Part shown: one piece after another, positions 367 through 8,966 of the stretch
Layout: each line of letters begins with the position of its first letter
Numbering within the stretch: position 1 is the stretch's first letter
Notes under the pieces: model-generated
Told to the model about the DNA's origin: nothing
Seen by the model: the letters and a program-made list of their open reading frames with translations, nothing else
Database searches by the model: none
Source: Clostridiales bacterium
Lineage (GTDB): Bacteria; Bacillota; Clostridia; Lachnospirales; Lachnospiraceae
Direction of reading: 5' to 3'
DNA length: 11,343 bases
NCBI GenBank assembly: GCA_021203115.1
Contig: JAJQBV010000221.1
Location: 1-11,343, forward strand
Translations under genes and position numbers: made by a program

Positions 367-1626
367 TCAGAGGGTCAGCTCTGCGGTGTGTTCCGATTCA
401 TAAGCGTCTTTCTGTTTTTTCCATCTCATACCGACAAGCTCCCTGTGAACCGGATCGTTCTCCTGATACTGTTCCCCACATTCAATCATTTTCTGCAGTT
501 CCTTCATCCGCTTTTCTTTTGTAAGCAGGCTCTGCCGGACGGTATCAGATTTTCCTTTTACGTCGGATAGTGCAGCCTCCAAATCCGCCAGCGTGTGTAT
601 TCTATCGCCACTCAGCCTGTCAAGAGTTTCCATTACTTCGGTGGTCATTTCCGCATAATGTTTAAGTTGGAACATGCCGGAATACTTTTTCACTCGCTGG
701 CTCTCCATCTCCAGATACTGCAACATCAGATCAGACAGAGCGGGAGACCGGTCTTTCTCTGCAAACTCCTTCATAGCTTCATTGAGTGAGGCGATCCATT
801 CTTTCAACCCGTTAATCTTATTCCGGATCTCCCGAAGTACACGGTTCGCTTCGCGGATCTTACGGTTGATGTCGCCGCGGTCTGTCCGGATGCCTTTCTT
901 TTCCATCGCGCACGCGGCGGGTCCCATGTGGATCGATGGGATCTCTTCAAACCCGCGGTCGGCATTGCTCCGGTGATCGATCCGTTCCTCGAATCCGTTT
1001 CTCTCCAGATAGCGGTTCACCGTATCTGCCCAGGAAGCACGCCATTTTTCTGCATTATCCCGACTGTTCCAGTCAACCGTGTTCACTTTCCGTGATTTCC
1101 ATCTTCCATTCGAACCGCGGACGCGCTCACCGTTTTCATCCAGAATAAATTCCTCCCGGCTCTTAGGAAGCCACTTCCCGTTTTCATCCAATGCACGGAT
1201 TGTCAGCATGATATGGCAGTGCGGGTTGCCATCACCCTTATCGTGGATGTTAAAATCCACACACATCCCGGCATCAACAAACTGGCTGCAGTAATCATGC
1301 ATGATTTTCTTGTATTCCGAGAGCGGCAGTTCTTTCGGCAGAGATACTTCAATATCCCTGGCAAGCTGGGAATCGCGCCGTTTCTCACACATCTCAACAG
1401 AATTCCAGAGGGTTGCCCTGTCATAAAAAGAAGCCGGCGCATTGGCCGGCAACATGATCTCTGAATATACAACATCCTTTTTTCTTCTGTAATCTGCGGT
1501 TATCCCGTTCCATTCATTTTCAATCTTTGTCCCACTCCGATAAGCCGCAGCCTCCACGGCACTATGCCCGTACCTGCTTTTCCCGCCGTGCCCTATGATC
1601 TTCATGGAAAAATGGTATATTGCCAT
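367..1626 (-). CDS. mobA: MobA/MobL-family (MOBQ) relaxase, shortened by an in-frame TGA
   Basis: Nickase that cuts the element's oriT, stays bound to the 5' end of the transferred strand and directs it to a conjugative pore supplied by another element. The N-terminus MAIYHFSMKI, the Tyr in AVEAAAYRSG (Y29, likely nucleophile) and the metal-binding run HDKGDGNPHCHIM (H128, H136, H138) are MOBQ hallmarks. Residues 1 to about 220 are the nuclease domain; the rest is helical. The ATG at 1626 is chosen because GGAGGTGA lies 6 nt upstream; the in-frame TTG at 1632 abuts that site. The protein is 419 residues, ending SEHTAELTL at TGA (369-367), with a further 79 open codons after it. The nuclease domain is intact, so nicking may survive. 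The gene sits just beside its predicted oriT (1720-1860). Confidence 0.9.
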   Translation of the reverse strand: MAIYHFSMKIIGHGGKSRYGHSAVEAAAYRSGTKIENEWNGITADYRRKKDVVYSEIMLPANAPASFYDRATLWNSVEMCEKRRDSQLARDIEVSLPKELPLSEYKKIMHDYCSQFVDAGMCVDFNIHDKGDGNPHCHIMLTIRALDENGKWLPKSREEFILDENGERVRGSNGRWKSRKVNTVDWNSRDNAEKWRASWADTVNRYLERNGFEERIDHRSNADRGFEEIPSIHMGPAACAMEKKGIRTDRGDINRKIREANRVLREIRNKINGLKEWIASLNEAMKEFAEKDRSPALSDLMLQYLEMESQRVKKYSGMFQLKHYAEMTTEVMETLDRLSGDRIHTLADLEAALSDVKGKSDTVRQSLLTKEKRMKELQKMIECGEQYQENDPVHRELVGMRWKKQKDAYESEHTAELTL

Positions 1627-1719
1627 GTTCAATCACCTCCCTGTCCTTGCCATAAAACTGATACATATAATAGCTGTGAATATTTCATAAAAGTCCGGCG
1701 GCGGATTCGGGAAAGGATA

Positions 1720-1860
1720 GACGGCACAGCCGTCGCAAGGGAAACTTTTGTTTCTCTTGACGCACCAGCGGTGCCAGCCCTCCGCAGATACCGTGCCGGT
1801 ATCGGTAGGAGTCTCCGAAGGACGCACGGTCACTGGAAGTGACGTATAAGTGCGCTTTCA
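1720..1860 (+). other. Predicted origin of transfer (oriT) with pIP501/RSF1010-like nic region
   Basis: The stretch between DUF3847 and the relaxase holds a run of short, perfect inverted repeats with 3-4 nt loops: GACGGC-ACA-GCCGTC (1720-1734), GAAAC-TTTT-GTTTC (1741-1754), GCACC-AGC-GGTGC (1762-1774), GATACCG-TGC-CGGTATC (1787-1803) and GTCACT-GGA-AGTGAC (1829-1843). The last is followed after one base by TATAAGTGCG (1845-1854) and then CTTTC. An inverted repeat followed by ATAAGTGCG and then CCCT is the known nic layout of pIP501/pGO1-type oriTs, so I place nic on the + strand between 1854 and 1855. The C-rich bases after the nick are only partly matched (CTTT). The 5' end at 1855 would lead, so 1855 upward enters first and mob enters last. 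Confidence 0.72.
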
Positions 1861-1868
1861 GTCTTTTC

Positions 1869-2195
1869 TCAGTATTTCCCCGTAACCGGGGTGATTTCTT
1901 TTTCATCCTGTCGTAACCCTCTCTTTCGTAAAAATCCCGTCGCTTCCGGGCAGGTTGCCACAATTTGGATAAATTCCGCGGCATCCTGCTCAGACATTTC
2001 TTTCAGTTCCGGCACATAGCTTTCCAGGATTCCGGCCTCTGTGCAGAGCCGCCGGGTACGTTGCCGACGTTCCTCATTTTTGTATGCGTTTGCATACATC
2101 TTCTCCTGGTTTTTCAGTTTCCGGATCTGATCCTCAGCGTAAATAAGCTCCGCCTGGATTTCTTCTTTTGTTTCTGGTTTCTTTCTACGTCCCAT
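1869..2195 (-). CDS. DUF3847 family small protein, upstream of relaxase
   Basis: A 108-residue basic protein starting MGRRKKPETKEEIQAEL, with a probable coiled coil at residues 11-50 (AEDQIRKLKNQEKMYANAY) and a C-terminal LCTEAGILESYVPEL followed by an acidic stretch. This fits DUF3847, a family repeatedly found directly upstream of MobA/MobL genes and presumed to be an accessory mobilisation or regulatory protein; no activity is established to my knowledge. I chose the ATG at 2195 because GAGGAG lies about 9 nt upstream. An ATG at 2201 is too close to that site, and the longer frame starting with TTG near 2342 runs through a terminator-like hairpin. Its stop (1869) lies 15 bases from the predicted nic, so gene and oriT almost abut. 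Confidence 0.82.
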   Translation of the reverse strand: MGRRKKPETKEEIQAELIYAEDQIRKLKNQEKMYANAYKNEERRQRTRRLCTEAGILESYVPELKEMSEQDAAEFIQIVATCPEATGFLRKRGLRQDEKEITPVTGKY

Positions 2196-2229
2196 AAACA
2201 TCAGCTCCTCTCTGTGATTTGAAAAAATG

Positions 2230-2267
2230 GTCAAAAGAAAAGCTCCCAACTTAATACGGTTGAGAGC
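2230..2267 (-). terminator. Rho-independent terminator or attenuator upstream of the DUF3847-mob genes
   Basis: Read on the minus strand, GCTCTCAAC (2267-2259), an 8-nt loop and GTTGGGAGC (2250-2242) form a 9-bp stem with one mismatch, followed at once by TTTTCTTTTG. This is a standard intrinsic terminator shape. It lies about 35 nt upstream of the DUF3847 ribosome binding site. It would stop transcripts arriving from tnpV and the hairpin array, or act as an attenuator. No separate promoter for DUF3847-mob was identified with confidence. Confidence 0.6.
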
Positions 2268-2349
2268 CAGTTCAAACATAAACGTAATTCGATTTAATCC
2301 TCCAAAAAGTGTGTGTATTTTCTCAGTGGCCTTTTTTGACAATTTTTCC

Positions 2350-2480
2350 CCGATTGGCCAATCGGCGTTTCTTATGAATTTGTCGTTTTCACAGCGCCGT
2401 TTGTGGAGTTATTCATCCAGATTCTCTGAAAATCGCAATTTTCCCAATTTAACCGATTGGCAACCGGATTTTGCCGATTG
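2350..2480. repeat. CCGATTGG half-site cluster with one perfect 16-bp palindrome
   Basis: CCGATTGGCCAATCGG at 2350-2365 is a perfect, loop-free 16-bp palindrome. The half-site CCGATTG recurs in direct orientation at 2453-2459 (within CCGATTGGCAACCGG) and 2474-2480 (GCCGATTG). The stretch is otherwise AT-rich and non-coding. A loop-free dyad plus isolated half-sites looks like a binding region for a dimeric regulator or a replication/partition protein. No protein is assigned to it. It lies between the terminator-like hairpin and the stem-loop array and is different in sequence from both. Confidence 0.5.
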
Positions 2481-2494
2481 TTGTATATATCACC

Positions 2495-2963
2495 TTCAAG
2501 TTGTCATTTTGACAACTTGAACCTGTCTATTATTCGGGTACAGTATAAGGGTCTGTGAATTGATAACTCGCATCAAGTTCCCAAAATGGGAACTTGATTG
2601 CTGATCGTGTAATAAATAAAATCAATCTGTCATTCAGTTGCATCAAGTCCTCAAAATGAGGACTTGATTTCTGATAATCTGTCATCGAAGTTATTTTTCA
2701 TAAATGATTCAGATCAAGTTCGCAAAATGCGCACTTGATTCGAGTCACCACAAGTTGTCAAAATGACAACTTGCGGTTGTCCGAAATCAGGAGGTAGTCC
2801 GCATGTTACGAAAATCGTAACTTGCGGTATATTGCGCCATTTCACCGCAAGTTCTCAAAATGGGAACATGCGGTGAGTAACTGTCCGGATGCCGCAAGTC
2901 CTCATATTGAGGACTTGCGGTAAACCAACACGTATCGTAGCTGTTATCAAAATGATAACGGCT
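2495..2963. repeat. Array of nine covarying stem-loops (27-nt core, 12-bp arms, 3-nt loop)
   Basis: Nine inverted repeats with the same geometry fill this otherwise non-coding stretch. Cores or full stems: H1 2495-2521, H2 2572-2598, H3 2642-2668, H4 2713-2739, H5 2748-2776, H6 2799-2827, H7 2842-2876, H8 2892-2920, H9 2939-2963. The left arm is CAAG-TTNNCA, the right arm mirrors it, and the loop is AAA in seven units, TTT in H1 and TAT in H8. Left inner hexamers are TTGTCA, TTCCCA, TCCTCA, TTCGCA, TTGTCA, TTACGA, TTCTCA, TCCTCA and TTATCA, almost always matched by the complementary right arm. The outer arm is ATCAAG in H2-H4 and CCGCAAG in H5-H8 (one-base variants in H5-H7). Loop centres are spaced 77, 70, 71, 36, 51, 46, 47 and 45 bp. 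H9 touches the tnpV stop codon. No T-run follows any stem, so these are not terminators. Function unknown; operators, single-stranded DNA hairpins and RNA elements are all possible. Confidence 0.93.
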
Positions 2964-3340
2964 CAGGTATAGATCAATTCTGATAAAACGTTTTCCTCCG
3001 CACGGCTCCGGATACTGTTCATGCTCTGCACCCAGTGCCAACTATCGCGGCGTTTCAGTTCCTCGTTTACACCTTCGACCTCTTTCATCTGTTCAATAAT
3101 AACCTCCAGCCGCTTCTGCGCTTGTTCATTGAGGTTAGCCAAATATGTCCATATTTCACCGGAAACAACCATCTCCGTATAAATGCTTGGCTTGCTCTCT
3201 TTCAGATATTCCCGATGCATCCGTCCCCAGCGTCCGATAGATCGCTTCTCCTCTGGCGATTTCAAATCAGGAATATAACAATCCCCGACAAGAACATAAT
3301 CAATCCCGTTTTCATAAATTCGTTTCTCCAATTCAGCCAT
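2963..3340 (-). CDS. tnpV: TnpV family transposon-encoded protein
   Basis: A 125-residue protein beginning MAELEKRIYENGIDYVLVGD. It shows the pattern I recognise from TnpV, first named in Tn4451/Tn4453-type clostridial elements: YIPDL near residue 24, then IGRWGRMHREYLKE (about 35-48), an S-G-x-x-x-x-YL segment (SGEIWTYLANLNEQA, about 59-73) and a C-terminal WVQSMNSIRSRAEENVLSELIY. The biochemical role is not established; TnpV is not the recombinase. The ATG at 3340 is chosen because AAGGTG lies about 6 nt upstream; the longer frame to 3385 has no such site and overlaps the preceding gene more. Its stop codon coincides with the last stem-loop of the array. Confidence 0.87.
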   Translation of the reverse strand: MAELEKRIYENGIDYVLVGDCYIPDLKSPEEKRSIGRWGRMHREYLKESKPSIYTEMVVSGEIWTYLANLNEQAQKRLEVIIEQMKEVEGVNEELKRRDSWHWVQSMNSIRSRAEENVLSELIYT

Positions 3341-3350
3341 CCGATTCACC

Positions 3351-3578
3351 TTAACCCTTTCTCTGCTCTCGCAGATATGCTTCAAAAATGCTTCTCCGTA
3401 TCAATACTTTTTTACCGATTTTATAAACCGAACCGCTTTCATACACCATACGCGTGAGCGGCTTTATTCCCAAACGATAGTATTCACATGCTATGCTATA
3501 AGTCACGAACTCATGCTGTAAAAAATCCATATCCTCATCATCGATCTGATCAGAAAACATCCAAACATTTCCACTCAT
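3351..3578 (-). CDS. DUF6462-type small protein (downstream paralogue)
   Basis: A 75-residue protein. Its core (about residues 26-70) reads TYSIACEYYRLGIKPLTRMV, then SGSVYKIGKKVLIRRSIFEAYL. This fits DUF6462, short helix-turn-helix/excisionase-like proteins of Firmicutes mobile elements: a helix pair, an A-x-x-x-Y-K/R-I/F stretch, a basic strand, then IFxxYL. It resembles the protein encoded just upstream (residue pattern Y-R/K-I/F-x-x-x-V-L-I-x-R-x-I-F-x-A-Y-L in both). Its ATG overlaps the upstream TGA (ATGA), so translation is probably coupled. A role as DNA-binding regulator, excision or mobilisation accessory is inference. The N-terminal 25 residues are acidic and not conserved with the partner. 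Confidence 0.75.
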   Translation of the reverse strand: MSGNVWMFSDQIDDEDMDFLQHEFVTYSIACEYYRLGIKPLTRMVYESGSVYKIGKKVLIRRSIFEAYLREQRKG

Positions 3579-3838
3579 TTGGCATCACCGCCTTTATCAT
3601 TTATGGTTGCCGGTTCATGAAATCTCTCCAGGTAAGCATCGAATATCTCACGATTGATCAATACCGTACTGTCAAAACGATAGATAGCTCCCGCCTCGCT
3701 GGCCAATTCCAACAGTTTTTTATGAGACAGACTATAAATTAATTCTGCCTGTTGGTATCGTATGTACTCTCTCTGCAATCTGCGCAGCTGCTCCGGTACC
3801 TCTTTCATACTTTTGATCGGTTTGTAAGTTTTACTCAT
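3575..3838 (-). CDS. DUF6462-type small protein (upstream paralogue)
   Basis: An 87-residue protein starting MSKTYKPIKSMKEVPEQL. The core (about residues 26-72) reads YIRYQQAELIYSLSHKKLLELASEAGAIYRF, then TVLINREIFDAYLERF, the layout of DUF6462 mobile-element proteins. GGAGGAG lies about 8 nt upstream of the ATG at 3838, a strong start. It is the first gene of the element's rightmost transcription unit, preceded by a terminator-like hairpin (3898-3936). It overlaps the next gene by 4 bp. It could bind element DNA, including the nearby stem-loop array, but nothing in the sequence proves this. Confidence 0.8.
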   Translation of the reverse strand: MSKTYKPIKSMKEVPEQLRRLQREYIRYQQAELIYSLSHKKLLELASEAGAIYRFDSTVLINREIFDAYLERFHEPATINDKGGDAK

Positions 3839-3897
3839 GACAGTCTCCTCCTACTGATTTAAATTTGACTGATTGACAGAAGCTGGCTTCTTGGACG

Positions 3898-3936
3898 AAA
3901 AAAGAGCACTTCTCAGATAATCTCCAAAAAGTGCTC
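3898..3936 (-). terminator. Rho-independent terminator between lysS and the mobile element genes
   Basis: On the minus strand, GAGCACTT (3936-3929) pairs with AAGTGCTC (3911-3904) over a 17-nt loop, and six T residues follow (3903-3898). It lies about 170 nt downstream of the lysS stop and 60 nt upstream of the first DUF6462 gene. It probably ends read-through from greA-lysS, insulating the element. An attenuator role for the element operon is possible. No other terminator for lysS was seen closer to the gene. Confidence 0.68.
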
Positions 3937-4057
3937 ACAGGTCTTGTCTAAACCTTATCCAGTTCCGTCATAAACATCATAACGCTTCGTGATGATGCGT
4001 TATTCTTCAAAATTTTGCTGTCAAATTGCTGTCAATGCGAGTATGACATCATGGCTA

Positions 4058-4102
4058 AATCGCAATATATAGTATGTTTTTAGCATTCCAATCGCAATAT
4101 AT
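4058..4102. repeat. 13-bp direct repeat at the element/lysS junction (candidate attachment-site region)
   Basis: AATCGCAATATAT occurs at 4058-4070 and again at 4090-4102, 32 bp apart in direct orientation, the second copy ending 8 bp from the lysS stop codon. Base composition changes here from the GC-rich housekeeping block to the AT-richer element. A second short tandem repeat, TTGCTGTCAA with one-base overlap context, lies nearby at about 4016-4036. These are features expected of an integration junction (core site or recombinase arm sites), but the other end of the element is outside the window, so the core cannot be confirmed. Confidence 0.4.
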
Positions 4103-4109
4103 TGTGGTT

Positions 4110-5606
4110 TTATTTCTCAATGGTTTTCATGGTCGGGAACAAGATCACATCCCGAATGGCCGGGCTGTCCGTCAACAGCATAACCAACCGATCGATCCCG
4201 TACCCGATTCCTCCGGTCGGCGGCATGCCGATCTCCAGCGCGTTCAGGAAATCCTCATCCGTGTGGTTGGCCTCCTCGTTGCCCGCCGCAAACGCCGCAT
4301 CCTGCGCCGCAAAGCGCTCCCGCTGATCAATCGGGTCGTTCAGCTCAGAGTAGGCGTTGCACATCTCCCATGTGTTGATGAAAAGCTCGAACCGCTCCAC
4401 CTTCTCCGGGTCGGACGGCTTTTTCTTCGTCAGCGGGGAGATGTCAAGGGGATGATCCATAATAAAGGTCGGCTGAACCAGCTCCTTCTCGCAGAACTCC
4501 TCGAAAAACAGGTTGATAATCTCGCCCTTGGTGTGGCGCTCCTCATATTCGATGTGATGCTCCTTCGCAAGCTTCCGGGCCTCCTCAAGCGTGCTGACTT
4601 CATCGAAATCGACTCCGGCGTATTTTTTGATGGCGTCATTCATGGTAAGCCGCGCAAACGGTTTTCCCAGATCAATCTCAACCCCGTTGTAAGTAATTTT
4701 GCTGCTGCCGCATACGGTCTCGGCCAGATAGCGGAACATGCTCTCGGTCAGCTCCATCATTCCCTCATAATCGGTATACGCCTGATAGAGCTCCATCAGC
4801 GTGAACTCCGGATTGTGGCGGGTGTCGACACCCTCATTGCGGAACACGCGTCCGATCTCGTACACGCGCTCCAGACCGCCCACGATCAGCCGCTTCAGGT
4901 ACAGCTCCAGAGAAATCCGGAGCTTCACGTCCTCATCAAGCGCATTGTAGTGCGTCTCAAACGGCCGGGCCGCCGCGCCGCCCGCGTTGGAGACCAGCAT
5001 GGGAGTCTCCACCTCCATAAATCCGCGGCCATCCAGAAAGCGGCGGATTTTCCTGATAATCCGGGAACGCTTGAGAAACGTCTCCTTCGACTCCGGATTC
5101 ATAATCAGATCCACATACCGCTGGCGATAGCGAAGATCTGTGTTCGTCAGCCCGTGGAACTTCTCCGGCAGCACCTGCAGGCTTTTACTGAGCAGCGTCA
5201 GCTCCGACGCGTGGATGGAAATCTCGCCCGTCTTGGTTTTAAAAACCTCGCCCTTTATGCCGACAATGTCGCCGATATCGTATTTTTTAAAATCCTTATA
5301 CGGATCCTCCCCGATGCTGTCTCTGGCAACATACGCCTGAATACTGCCCTGCAGATCCTGAACATTACAAAAAGAAGCCTTGCCCATCACGCGCTTAAAC
5401 ATCAGCCGTCCGGCAATGGAAACCTCTTTGCCCTCCAGATCGGCATAGTTGTCCTTGATCTCCAGACTGTGATGTGTTACATCGTATTTTGTAATCTGAA
5501 ACGGATCCTTTCCCGCCTCCTGAAGATTCTTAAGCTTCTCCCGACGGTTTCTTAAAATCTGGTTTAAGTCCTGCTCCGGGGCATTTCCTTTCTTTTGTTC
5601 GCCCAT
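4110..5606 (-). CDS. lysS: Lysine--tRNA ligase, class II
   Basis: Charges tRNA-Lys with lysine in the cytoplasm. The 498 residues are full length for bacterial LysRS. An OB-fold anticodon-binding domain covers about residues 55-150 ([20 protein letters not shown]). The class II catalytic core follows, with motif 1 around [10 protein letters not shown] (about 186-195), motif 2 [15 protein letters not shown] (245-259) and motif 3 [12 protein letters not shown] (466-477). The ATG at 5606 has GGAGGGAG about 5 nt upstream. It lies 35 bp behind greA, so the two are probably one transcript, an arrangement common in Clostridia. The stop (4110) is at the edge of the mobile element, whose integration seems to have left the gene intact. 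Confidence 0.98.
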
Positions 5607-6849: not shown

Positions 6850-7827
6850 TTATGCGCACAAAAATTCCTCCAGCAGCCGCTCCAGATCCCCGTAGGTCTG
6901 GATCTCGTTGATCCGTCCCCGCAGGCGCGAAGAATTTTTATAACCGGCCGTATACCACGCCGCATGCTTTCGGATCTCCCGGATACCGATATATTCCCCC
7001 TTCACCTCCAGCAAAAGCCCGGCGTGCCGAAGGATCATATCCGCCATCTCGCGGACGGACGGTTTCGGCAGGGGTTCCCCCGCCTCCAGCTCGTGGAGGA
7101 TCTGCCGGAAAATCCACGGATTTCCCTCCGCTTCCCTCCCGATCATAAACCCGTCGCAGCCGGTCTCCTCTCTCATCCGGATCACATCCCGCGCCGAGCG
7201 CAGGTCGCCGTTGCCGATCACCGGAATGCTGACCGCCTCTTTCACACAGCGAATGATATCCCAGTCCGCCGCTCCCGCGTAATACTGCTGCCGGGTTCTT
7301 CCATGGACTGTCACCGCGGCGACGCCGCAGCTCTCCGCGATCCTTGCGATCTCTACCGCGTTGATATGCTCCTCGTCAAATCCCTTGCGGATCTTCACTG
7401 TCACCGGTTTTTTCACTGCCTGAACCAGCTTAGACAAAATCTTCTCCACTAGCCGCGGATCATTCATCAGCGCCGACCCCTCGCCGTTTTTGACCACCTT
7501 CGGCACGGGGCAGCCCATATTGAAATCCAGAACGGCAAACGGCCGCTCCTCGATTTTTGCCGCCATGTCCGCCAGAATATTCGGATCTGAGCCGAAAAGC
7601 TGAAGGGAGACCGGCTGCTCCTCCGGACGAATCTCCATCAGCTTTTCCGTATTCTTATTCCCGTAATAGATTGCTTTTGCGCTGACCATTTCCATGCAGA
7701 CAAGACCGGCGCCCTGTTCTTTGCACAGCAAACGAAATGGCAGGTCGGAAACTCCTGCCATTGGCGCTAAAATCAAATTGTTGTCCAAAACCACATTGCC
7801 GATCTGAAGCTTCTCTGTTGGTCTCAT
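6850..7827 (-). CDS. dusB: tRNA-dihydrouridine synthase (DusB type)
   Basis: FMN- and NADPH-dependent enzyme that reduces specific uridines in tRNA to dihydrouridine. The 325 residues form the usual TIM barrel plus helical tail. Diagnostic segments are LAPMAGVSDLPFR (20-32), the catalytic cysteine in DFNMGCPVPKVVKNGEG (C106), KIRKGF, TVHGRTRQQYYAGAADW, the FMN phosphate site IGNGDL and GFMIGREAEGNPWIF. GGAGG lies 5 nt before the ATG at 7827. It starts 27 bp after coaX, in the same run of genes. The Dus subfamily (B rather than A or C) is assigned from overall resemblance and context, so the exact uridine position modified is not certain. Confidence 0.95.
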   Translation of the reverse strand: MRPTEKLQIGNVVLDNNLILAPMAGVSDLPFRLLCKEQGAGLVCMEMVSAKAIYYGNKNTEKLMEIRPEEQPVSLQLFGSDPNILADMAAKIEERPFAVLDFNMGCPVPKVVKNGEGSALMNDPRLVEKILSKLVQAVKKPVTVKIRKGFDEEHINAVEIARIAESCGVAAVTVHGRTRQQYYAGAADWDIIRCVKEAVSIPVIGNGDLRSARDVIRMREETGCDGFMIGREAEGNPWIFRQILHELEAGEPLPKPSVREMADMILRHAGLLLEVKGEYIGIREIRKHAAWYTAGYKNSSRLRGRINEIQTYGDLERLLEEFLCA

Positions 7828-7854: not shown

Positions 7855-8625
7855 TCATTTTTTCTGCTTCTCAAAGATCAGGCGCATCCCGTACAGCGTA
7901 AGCTGCGGATCGTAGATATCGATCGCGTCCGTCTCCTGTTCAATGATGCGTCCCAGCCCGCCGGTAGCGACCACCTTCACGTCCTCCCGGCCGAACTCCT
8001 TTTTCATCTGGCGGATGATATACTCCGTCTGCCCGACCTGTCCGTAGACCAGACCGGCCTGCATGCACGCGATGGTATCCTGCGCCAGAATGCTCTTCGG
8101 CTTTTTGATCTCAAACTCCGGCAGCTTTGCCGCCATACTCCACATCGACTGCGCCGATGTCCGGATCCCCGGTGCAATCACGCACGCGGTAAAGGTTCCG
8201 TCCTCGTCCACCAGATCAAAGGTCGTCGCGGTTCCGTAATCAACCACGATCGCCGGTCCGCCGTAAAGCTCATACACCGCCGCCGCATCCACGATCCGAT
8301 CCGCTCCCACCTGACGCGGATTGCGTCCCGCGACGCGGATGCCGGTTTTAATGCCGGATTCAATGATGATCGGTTTCGTGTGAAAATATTTGAGAATGGC
8401 GTTGGTCAGAGAATGCATGACATTCGGAACCACCGACGCGACGATTGCATCCGTAATATCCGCCACCGCCACCTCATTGTGAACCAGCAGCTCACAGATC
8501 ACCATGCCGTACTCATCCGACGTGCGCGTCTGTATCGTTGTCATGCGAAACGTGGTCCGCAGCTTTTTCCCGTCGAACACCCCCAGCGTAATGTTTGTAT
8601 TTCCGATATCCACTGTCAGTAACAT
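7855..8625 (-). CDS. coaX: Type III pantothenate kinase
   Basis: Phosphorylates pantothenate, the first step of coenzyme A synthesis. The 256 residues belong to the ASKHA fold and show the type III signatures: VDIGNTNITLGVFDG (5-19, phosphate loop 1), GADR (107-110) and DYGTATTFDLVD (129-140, phosphate loop 2, with Tyr where Phe is common), then VIAPGI (149-154). The ATG at 8625 overlaps the stop of the DUF6145 gene by one base (TGATG), with GGAGG upstream inside that gene, so the two are translationally coupled. Type III enzymes are not feedback-inhibited by CoA, a property of the family rather than something visible here. Confidence 0.97.
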   Translation of the reverse strand: MLLTVDIGNTNITLGVFDGKKLRTTFRMTTIQTRTSDEYGMVICELLVHNEVAVADITDAIVASVVPNVMHSLTNAILKYFHTKPIIIESGIKTGIRVAGRNPRQVGADRIVDAAAVYELYGGPAIVVDYGTATTFDLVDEDGTFTACVIAPGIRTSAQSMWSMAAKLPEFEIKKPKSILAQDTIACMQAGLVYGQVGQTEYIIRQMKKEFGREDVKVVATGGLGRIIEQETDAIDIYDPQLTLYGMRLIFEKQKK

Positions 8626-8966
8626 CAGATGTCATCCTCCCCGATCTCTCCCAGAAAAACTGCCTTATAATATAGCTCCAGCGACTCCAACAGCTCTGTT
8701 TTTGTGTTCTGTATCTGACGGATCTTTAAAACACTCCCGATCTCATCATACAGAAGGTCTCCTTCGTCTGCGGAGGTTTCCAGCTGCAGGCAGCCGTCCG
8801 CATCAAACTTCATCACCAGAACACCGCCCACATCCTCCGTGTACAGCACGCAGAGAATCTTCAGCTCATCCTGAACCTGCGCGGGCAAACCGTCAAACTC
8901 CGGATTCAGATAATACTGCTTTGTGTATGCACTGGACGCACAGAGTATGGTTTCTTCGTCATTCAT
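8625..8966 (-). CDS. DUF6145 family protein
   Basis: A 113-residue acidic cytoplasmic protein reading MNDEETILCASSAYTKQYYLN, then LPAQVQDELKILCVLYTEDVGGVL, DEGDLLYDEIGSVLKI and TELLESLELYYKAVFL. I recognise this as the DUF6145 family of Lachnospiraceae and relatives; its function is unknown. ATG 8966 is preferred since AAGGAG lies 8 nt upstream, 19 bp after birA ends. The frame remains open back to 9095, but that part overlaps birA and has no conserved look. Position between birA and coaX, two cofactor genes, with a one-base overlap to coaX, suggests co-expression but not a shared pathway. Confidence 0.8.
   Translation of the reverse strand: MNDEETILCASSAYTKQYYLNPEFDGLPAQVQDELKILCVLYTEDVGGVLVMKFDADGCLQLETSADEGDLLYDEIGSVLKIRQIQNTKTELLESLELYYKAVFLGEIGEDDI

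Follow-up and report, generated by a model that had tools for sequence, protein, structure and literature searches.

Nine small palindromes stand in a row in a mobilizable element of a Lachnospiraceae genome, and the question they raise is what such palindromes do and why their arms remain paired as their sequences differ. The window, meaning the whole stretch of 11,343 nucleotides analyzed, is one entire contig (C230) of a 1.69 Mb assembly that is about 80% complete. Its left third is part of a mobilizable element with every gene on the minus strand, in the order two DUF6462 ORFs, tnpV, about 470 bp containing the array, a DUF3847 gene and a MobQ-family relaxase. To the right of the element are lysS and then more chromosome. 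The contig end truncates the element, whose left end is missing. The features around the array are as follows.

367 to 1632, minus strand: MobQ-family relaxase (PF03389; NF041496 above cut-off)
1869 to 2342, minus strand: DUF3847 ORF, the first gene past the array in the direction of transcription, with a likely start near 2201 (by eye)
2241 to 2268, minus strand: terminator-like hairpin (consensus match only) that has a T run and lies between the array and DUF3847
2963 to 3385, minus strand: tnpV (PF14198, E 5.2e-40), whose stop codon abuts the array
3351 to 3838, minus strand: two DUF6462 ORFs (3351-3578 and 3575-3838), the former also matching Tn916-Xis (Tn916 excisionase)

The array itself spans 2495-2963 and is made of nine dyads with a 3-nt loop, centered at 2508, 2585, 2655, 2726, 2762, 2813, 2859, 2906 and 2951. 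The units, for which no strand is given, are these.

H1, 2495 to 2521: 12 perfect pairs, loop TTT, core GTTGTCA
H2, 2572 to 2598: 12 perfect pairs, core GTTCCCA
H3, 2642 to 2668: 12 perfect pairs, core GTCCTCA
H4, 2713 to 2739: one mismatch, core GTTCGCA
H5, 2747 to 2777: one mismatch, core GTTGTCA; its central 23 bases are those of H1 in reverse complement
H6, 2799 to 2827: one mismatch, core GTTACGA
H7, 2842 to 2876: one mismatch and one wobble, core GTTCTCA
H8, 2892 to 2920: 13 perfect pairs, loop TAT, core GTCCTCA
H9, 2939 to 2963: one wobble, core GTTATCA

The loop is AAA in the seven units other than H1 and H8. Starting at the loop and reading outwards, the inner arms on the left are ACTGTTG (H1 and H5), ACCCTTG (H2), ACTCCTG (H3 and H8), ACGCTTG (H4), AGCATTG (H6), ACTCTTG (H7) and ACTATTG (H9). 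Centre-to-centre distances from H1 to H9 are 77, 70, 71, 36, 51, 46, 47 and 45 bp, and the units form two groups. H1-H4, 70-77 bp apart, have ends of the type (A/T)TCA...TGA(A/T); the second group follows 36 bp further on and comprises H5-H8, with ends near CCGC...GCGG, and H9, at spacings of 45-51 bp. H2 and H3, taken with their flanks, appear to be a partial duplication (86% over 36 bases). Between the array and DUF3847 there are extra dyads at window positions 2350-2365 (CCGATTGGCCAATCGG) and 2454-2480 (CGATTGGC...GCCGATTG).

The nine-dyad array was confirmed as real. In 496 bp, nine hairpins scored at least 8, whereas 200 dinucleotide shuffles averaged 0.07 and never gave more than 1; an alternative count gave eight, against an average of 0.0365 and no more than 2 in any of 2000 shuffles of 800 bp. 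In the alignment of the nine units, 95.4% of the cells were paired, versus 73.1% with the right arms reshuffled, and none of 500 reshufflings reached the observed value. Nine of the 12 pairs were altered on both sides, with 21 double-change cells compared to 6.5 in the shuffled alignments. The original prediction, which had reported the nine dyads with their 3-nt loop, the positions of the mismatches and wobbles and the compensating changes in the arms, was correct in these respects. The common pattern that it gave, CAAGTTNNCA/AAA/TGNNAACTTG, is exact in H2 and H5, and in H1 save for the TTT loop, but the other units depart from it, with CAAGTC in H3 and H8, CATGTTACGA in H6 and AGCTGTTATCA in H9. 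Likewise, its spacers are indeed irregular, but the range of 45-77 bp becomes 36-77 bp when measured from centre to centre. Six columns are invariant across the nine units and the sequence is thus not free. The non-Watson-Crick positions are G.T on the plus strand in H7 and H9 and on the minus strand in H5, so neither strand is favored as RNA.

The known classes that had been set aside for this array stayed so. A terminator scan found no T run behind eight of the nine units and listed only H1, with the tail CCTGTCTATT. The units differ from one another at uneven distances, whereas a CRISPR has near-identical repeats and even spacers. No Rfam family reached its gathering score in window 1600-4200, where two matches lay far below it.

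Similar arrays were searched for in genomes, phages and plasmids. A covariance model (R1) matched 20 of 299 family genomes at E<=0.01, the window's own genome included. The other 19 had one site each, several with a T run behind it. In the own, incomplete genome all 17 R1 matches, both strands counted, lay inside this array, and the model found no dispersed copies of the REP/BIME type elsewhere in it. The pattern CAAGTT-N11-AACTTG matched in 57 of 391 class genomes, and beyond the units of the window just two matches were fully paired (G108 and G497). The G108 match (L151) lies outside a ParB-like gene and is flanked by two other small palindromes. Small palindromes with a centre of a different kind were seen in L151 near 1480-1550, around CAAGTTTGCCAAAGGCAAACTTG, and in a row beside tRNA genes at L022:307-410. 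Comparison of the array with phages and plasmids by blastn gave short matches alone, with E of 2 or more.

Among 66 loci with relatives of TnpV, 62 of which were searched with R1, none had an array of the window's kind. R1 matches occurred in L033, L034, L035, L036, L041-L043, L045, L071 and L093, singly save for two in L071, and the weakest of these are probably chance. Hairpin clusters of another kind were present in L063, L080 and L083. In L071, palindromes at 8414-8440 and 8806-8832 lie just 3' of tnpV and within a gene that, by its look, we take to encode an ORF6N domain; this is perhaps a second DNA-binding family carrying its own site. In the closest TnpV relative, the DNA downstream of tnpV (L033:8480-9170) shows, by eye, long repeats that have diverged and contain CCTATTGG-type motifs.

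Palindromes of the same design were found in frame within genes. A pattern search of viral contigs gave 29 stretches, 12 of which lay in frame after an HGG(D/N)(R/H)-like motif and were translated as SSxQNxNL or similar. Nine of these 12 were ParB-like genes with a putative HTH behind the palindrome, and L033 also has one such gene. In phages and mobile elements, many ParB-like genes have this in-frame palindrome, 21-37 bp long, just ahead of the putative HTH, and homologues fetched by protein similarity have it at the same position with other arms, for example ATCAACGGGCCAAAATGGCCCGTTGAT (L164), ATCAGGTTACGGAAAGCGTAACCTGAT (L163) and CCCAAATCCCCAAAATGGGGATTTGGG (L159). The ParB-like label comes from weak PHROG matches and from names in database records, for instance pNOB8 ParB N-like protein. 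Visual inspection of the sequences was the basis for assigning the HTH and the recognition helix within it; two proteins also matched HTH_65, below the threshold (E 0.0093 and 0.087). The ParB-like proteins tested had no above-cut-off Pfam match save for a Dam domain in L122. The best sequence matches to solved structures concerned the C-terminal part, involved chains that are designed or form coiled coils, and were taken as chance.

A total of 107 loci yielded 76 distinct ParB-like ORFs after 11 loci without a recognizable ORF and 20 duplicates were set aside; the protein-profile scan kept the best 80 of 150 relatives, and 80 of 93 stretches from the core-directed retrieval were examined. The linker palindrome scored at least 9 in 48 of the 76 ORFs, compared to four of 255 control windows of those same ORFs, and below 9 in the other 28. 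Removal of the nine genes that had been found by their palindrome left 40 of 67 versus four of 220, and further removal of L160 and L162, which had been fetched partly for an earlier palindrome match, left 38 of 65 versus four of 214. No such palindrome was seen in the ParB-like genes of L391, L394 and L395. Across 50 genes and 13 pairs, 88.3% of the cells were Watson-Crick, compared to 42.8% when shuffled, the high value being partly by construction as the genes were chosen by a score of at least 7; in the same set, each of the 13 positions has two or more Watson-Crick pair types. Palindromicity is thus maintained at the level of the DNA, in coding sequence for a peptide that varies.

The surroundings of these genes were also examined. 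No second copy of the core was found in the flanking DNA of 48 genes (up to 3 mismatches, 228,809 bases). Palindromes with a CA-N3-TG centre and a score of at least 9 occurred outside the ParB-like gene in four of the 14 longer records (G679, G682, G684 and G687), and several such sites in a record occurred only in G679 and G682. The ParA motif KGG(V/S/T)(G/A/S)K(T/S) was present in none of the 76 ParB-like loci, whose flanks are often only 1.5 kb, and a wider motif gave one 70-residue frame unlike ParA. One family member has 6839 relatives at E<=1e-10, of which 120 were examined, and P0102, a close relative with 89% identity over the region, has a ParA-type ATPase fused to it, which would fit a partition-like role. 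An actin-like gene was present in one of 17 records searched and is therefore not a general partner.

Several further observations were made at these loci. An ORF resembling PemK/MazF by motif lies near the ParB-like gene in 20 of the 76 loci, including L160, L172, L186-L190, L196, L200 and L205, and is confirmed by Pfam in two; it is perhaps a maintenance module. L234, L237-L239, L247 and L251 form a subfamily with SHDTI or SRDTL helices and even-loop palindromes centered near CAGAWWTCTG. L372 has three dispersed palindromes (11640, 14049 and 17003) with the common core TTTGGGACAAAATGTCCCAAA, one of them just upstream of a predicted gene, and the contig's own ParB-like gene has a different core.

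The inner arm of the in-gene palindrome follows the putative recognition helix encoded next to it. In partial Mantel tests, the inner arm was correlated with the helix given the HTH scaffold (r=0.352, p=0.0005, n=43) and uncorrelated with the scaffold given the helix (r=0.016, p=0.40); this set leaves out low scorers and the even-loop palindromes. The correlation held when the nine palindrome-found genes were removed (r=0.309, p=0.0005, n=35) and when the set was thinned to n=23 (r=0.278, p=0.0025). The outer arm gave r=0.105 (p=0.08) with the helix and is symmetric all the same. In the 120 listed close homologues of L111, the linker peptide and the helix switch jointly among four classes without exception: SQ(N/I/F)G(N/T)L with (S/C)KNTV in 83, CQIGNL with GMRTVFR in 30, YGKRNL with GRTYVIE in four and GQNG(P/Q)L with NDSFVKR in three. 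This joint switching could come from common inheritance of neighboring segments. CC in the core accompanied Glu at position 6 of the helix in six of nine genes, compared to one of 45 genes without this Glu (Fisher p=2e-5), which we offer as a hypothesis noticed in the same data.

The coupling of core and helix fits a double-stranded DNA site that would be read by the HTH of the same protein. The original prediction had taken the pairing as evidence of selection for a folded structure; because the inner arm co-varies with the adjacent putative helix, the result points instead to dyad-symmetric double-stranded binding sites, and the earlier interpretation is partly supported. The symmetry of the outer arms, which do not track the helix, may reflect a structural or mutational component in addition.

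Window palindromes share with the in-gene ones their centre, their size, two outer-arm kinds and several cores, although the sharing of cores is a biased count as genes were partly retrieved because they bear particular cores. H2 is identical to the palindrome in L111 (helix SKNTV) over 27 bases, 16 of which had been fixed by the search pattern, and its core is also in L192, which was fetched by protein similarity. The H3/H8 core is in frame in the ParB-like genes of L292 and L293 (TVER helices), the H6 core is in the left arm of L033 (GRDYV helix) and the H9 core is in L126 (SPASV helix). The nine sites would thus span at least four helix classes. No complete palindrome with the H1/H5, H4 or H7 core was seen in ParB-like genes, and a search with the GTTACG core gave 58 stretches, with none of the 23 that have an arm of at least 8 lying in a recognizable ParB-like gene.

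From these sequence comparisons, we propose, with slightly more confidence than doubt, that the array is a cluster of nine operator-like or parS-like sites for HTH proteins that act as dimers and belong to a ParB-like family of phages and integrative elements. The segment after the linker would be the HTH, one HTH of a dimer would read each half-site, and the copy within a gene would be the protein's own site. Dimers of a ParB-like protein would then bind the units of the array, and the array, being upstream of DUF3847 and MobQ, would recruit the protein to control these genes. Alternatively, the sites may stabilize a circular form of the element as a partition-like handle, or may compete with the owner of the ParB-like protein. 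A search of the window and of its 80%-complete genome turned up no ParB-like gene; the protein may therefore be encoded in the lost left part of the element, in the fifth of the genome that the assembly lacks, or on another element. If a single protein read all nine sites, the symmetric differences at their variable positions would have no explanation. Symmetric change at positions that one protein need not read, together with outer arms that are unlinked to the helix, makes a plain operator insufficient, so several readers, a fold or repair by template switching must add to it.

Several readers are the subject of a tentative, rather doubtful alternative, in which a ParB-less mobilizable element gathered sites for the ParB-like proteins of many phages and elements as a multi-specific landing pad. 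Whichever ParB-like protein co-resides would be recruited for stability or transfer, or else titrated and made incompatible, and the in-gene palindromes would be self-identity tags that travel with their reader.

Related arrays, for which the original prediction had proposed a search, exist in other elements, and one of them lies in non-coding DNA of a MobA/MobL element. This contig (L370, from G679) has genes for a MobA/MobL relaxase, an actin-like protein, large serine recombinases (one Pfam-confirmed), a ParB-like protein and a PemK-like protein, and its palindromes lie at 8120-8394, directly upstream of the actin-like gene. Four were found by a scan (of L361), with a fifth, weaker one by eye near 8170, and three pass the hairpin count, where 0.02 are expected. 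Two of the units have GTGG...CCCAC cores, close to the CAGTGGGCC...TGACCCACTG that the contig's own ParB-like gene has, which supports a cluster for a single reader. The phage contig L366 has six strong palindromes, and two weaker ones recognized by eye, within about 410 bp next to a large-terminase gene (7087-7496; 0.05 expected by the hairpin count), and no relatives of this array were found in phage records. Its arms share little save for a centre near C(A/G)ANTTG and are so divergent that a single reader is hard to imagine, which supports many specificities or a structural role. On its minus strand, the flanks of two palindromes read GGDRRS or GDRRSS, as in ParB-like linkers. A third contig, L365, is phage-like by its genes and has three palindromes whose cores are much alike and whose outer arms, symmetric in each, differ.

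A structural role is what the hairpin explanation assumes, namely that a single strand (in conjugation or replication) or a transcript folds into nine stem-loops and that a structure-reading protein or enzyme needs the fold while the paired arms drift freely. The divergent arms of L366, the compensation seen over the full length of the arms in the window, the several pair types at all 13 positions in the palindrome-picked genes and the symmetric variation of outer arms that do not follow the helix all speak for it. Against it, the inner arm tracks a putative recognition helix, six columns of the array are invariant, and the mismatches favor neither strand as RNA. We consider it unlikely that the palindromes are hairpins selected for their structure.

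Still less likely, in our judgment, is that these are mobile or duplicating palindromic units, like Rickettsia palindromic elements or REPs, that spread into tolerant linkers and non-coding arrays and have no function for the element. Pattern matches do occur in other ORFs as well, including one (L105) that by eye resembles a small terminase, and rows of small palindromes stand beside the tRNA genes of L022. The apparent duplication of H2 and H3 points the same way, as does a ParB-like gene in L288 (1534-1608) with two in-frame palindromes of different cores 48 bp apart. Against this, the palindrome keeps one fixed place in ParB-like proteins, close homologues differ there jointly with the HTH, and the window's incomplete genome has no other copies. 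Template switching during replication, a known mechanism for quasipalindromes, would repair an imperfect palindrome from its own other arm after duplication of a binding site and would account for symmetric change where a single protein need not read, outer arms included. By itself it explains neither the core-helix coupling nor the arrays in unrelated elements, and it is the least probable of these explanations.

The preferred reading, that of operator-like or parS-like sites for ParB-like proteins, has partial precedents. In the accessible part of its description, SGI1, an integrative mobilizable element, has two 22-bp inverted-repeat sites that are bound by the ParB of another element and that stabilize SGI1 and destabilize or expel the helper plasmid (PMC10954446). 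The element in the window resembles it in being mobilizable and carrying inverted repeats, which are putative sites here; SGI1 has one consensus with binding shown, whereas the window has nine putative sites with seven different cores and no known helper. The same text mentions that a parS had earlier been hypothesized to lie inside a gene (ORF053), but not an in-gene palindrome with variable arms. From this precedent, a stabilizing or expelling role is possible for ParB sites on a mobilizable element. As excerpts of another report describe, KorB of RK2 is a ParB-family clamp with O_B sites near or far from promoters and long-range silencing of mobile-element genes (PMC11790492), and the putative sites here would be alike in these respects. 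O_B, however, is one 16-bp silencer sequence, while here the arms vary and the best-sampled site is in frame in the protein's own gene.

Orphan ParB-like proteins, according to the available portion of a survey, have a ParB-CTPase fold outside a parAB operon and are enriched on mobile elements; its text makes no mention of palindromes, inverted repeats, hairpins, the own gene or coding sequence (PMC12704722). In the family studied here, by contrast, a close relative has ParA fused to it. Rickettsia palindromic elements also occur in frame within protein genes and between genes, but they are, in the accessible text, 105-146 bp repeats of one genus, while those here are about 27 bp, have variable arms and are tied to an HTH (PMC2229807). 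As for putative membership of the parS type, one unit (H2) is identical to an in-gene palindrome, and among in-gene palindromes the cores co-vary with the putative helix; a candidate cognate ParB gene on the same replicon was not found in the window and its incomplete genome and is present on the contig of the L370 array. In a full-text literature to which most subscription papers do not belong, and judging by titles and the beginnings of abstracts, we recognized no published description of such in-gene palindromes or arrays. What is new here is where such palindromes occur elsewhere, that is, in frame within ParB-like genes.

If this explanation is right, the genes of a large family of ParB-like proteins contain, within their coding sequence, the DNA site that their own product recognizes, and reader and site would be swappable as a cassette. 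The family would also provide a ready data set for a recognition code of HTH proteins and for the prediction of sites for uncharacterized ParB-like proteins. Arrays in mobilizable elements, such as the one in this window, would then allow hitch-hiking and incompatibility among mobile elements to be tested by sequence analysis.
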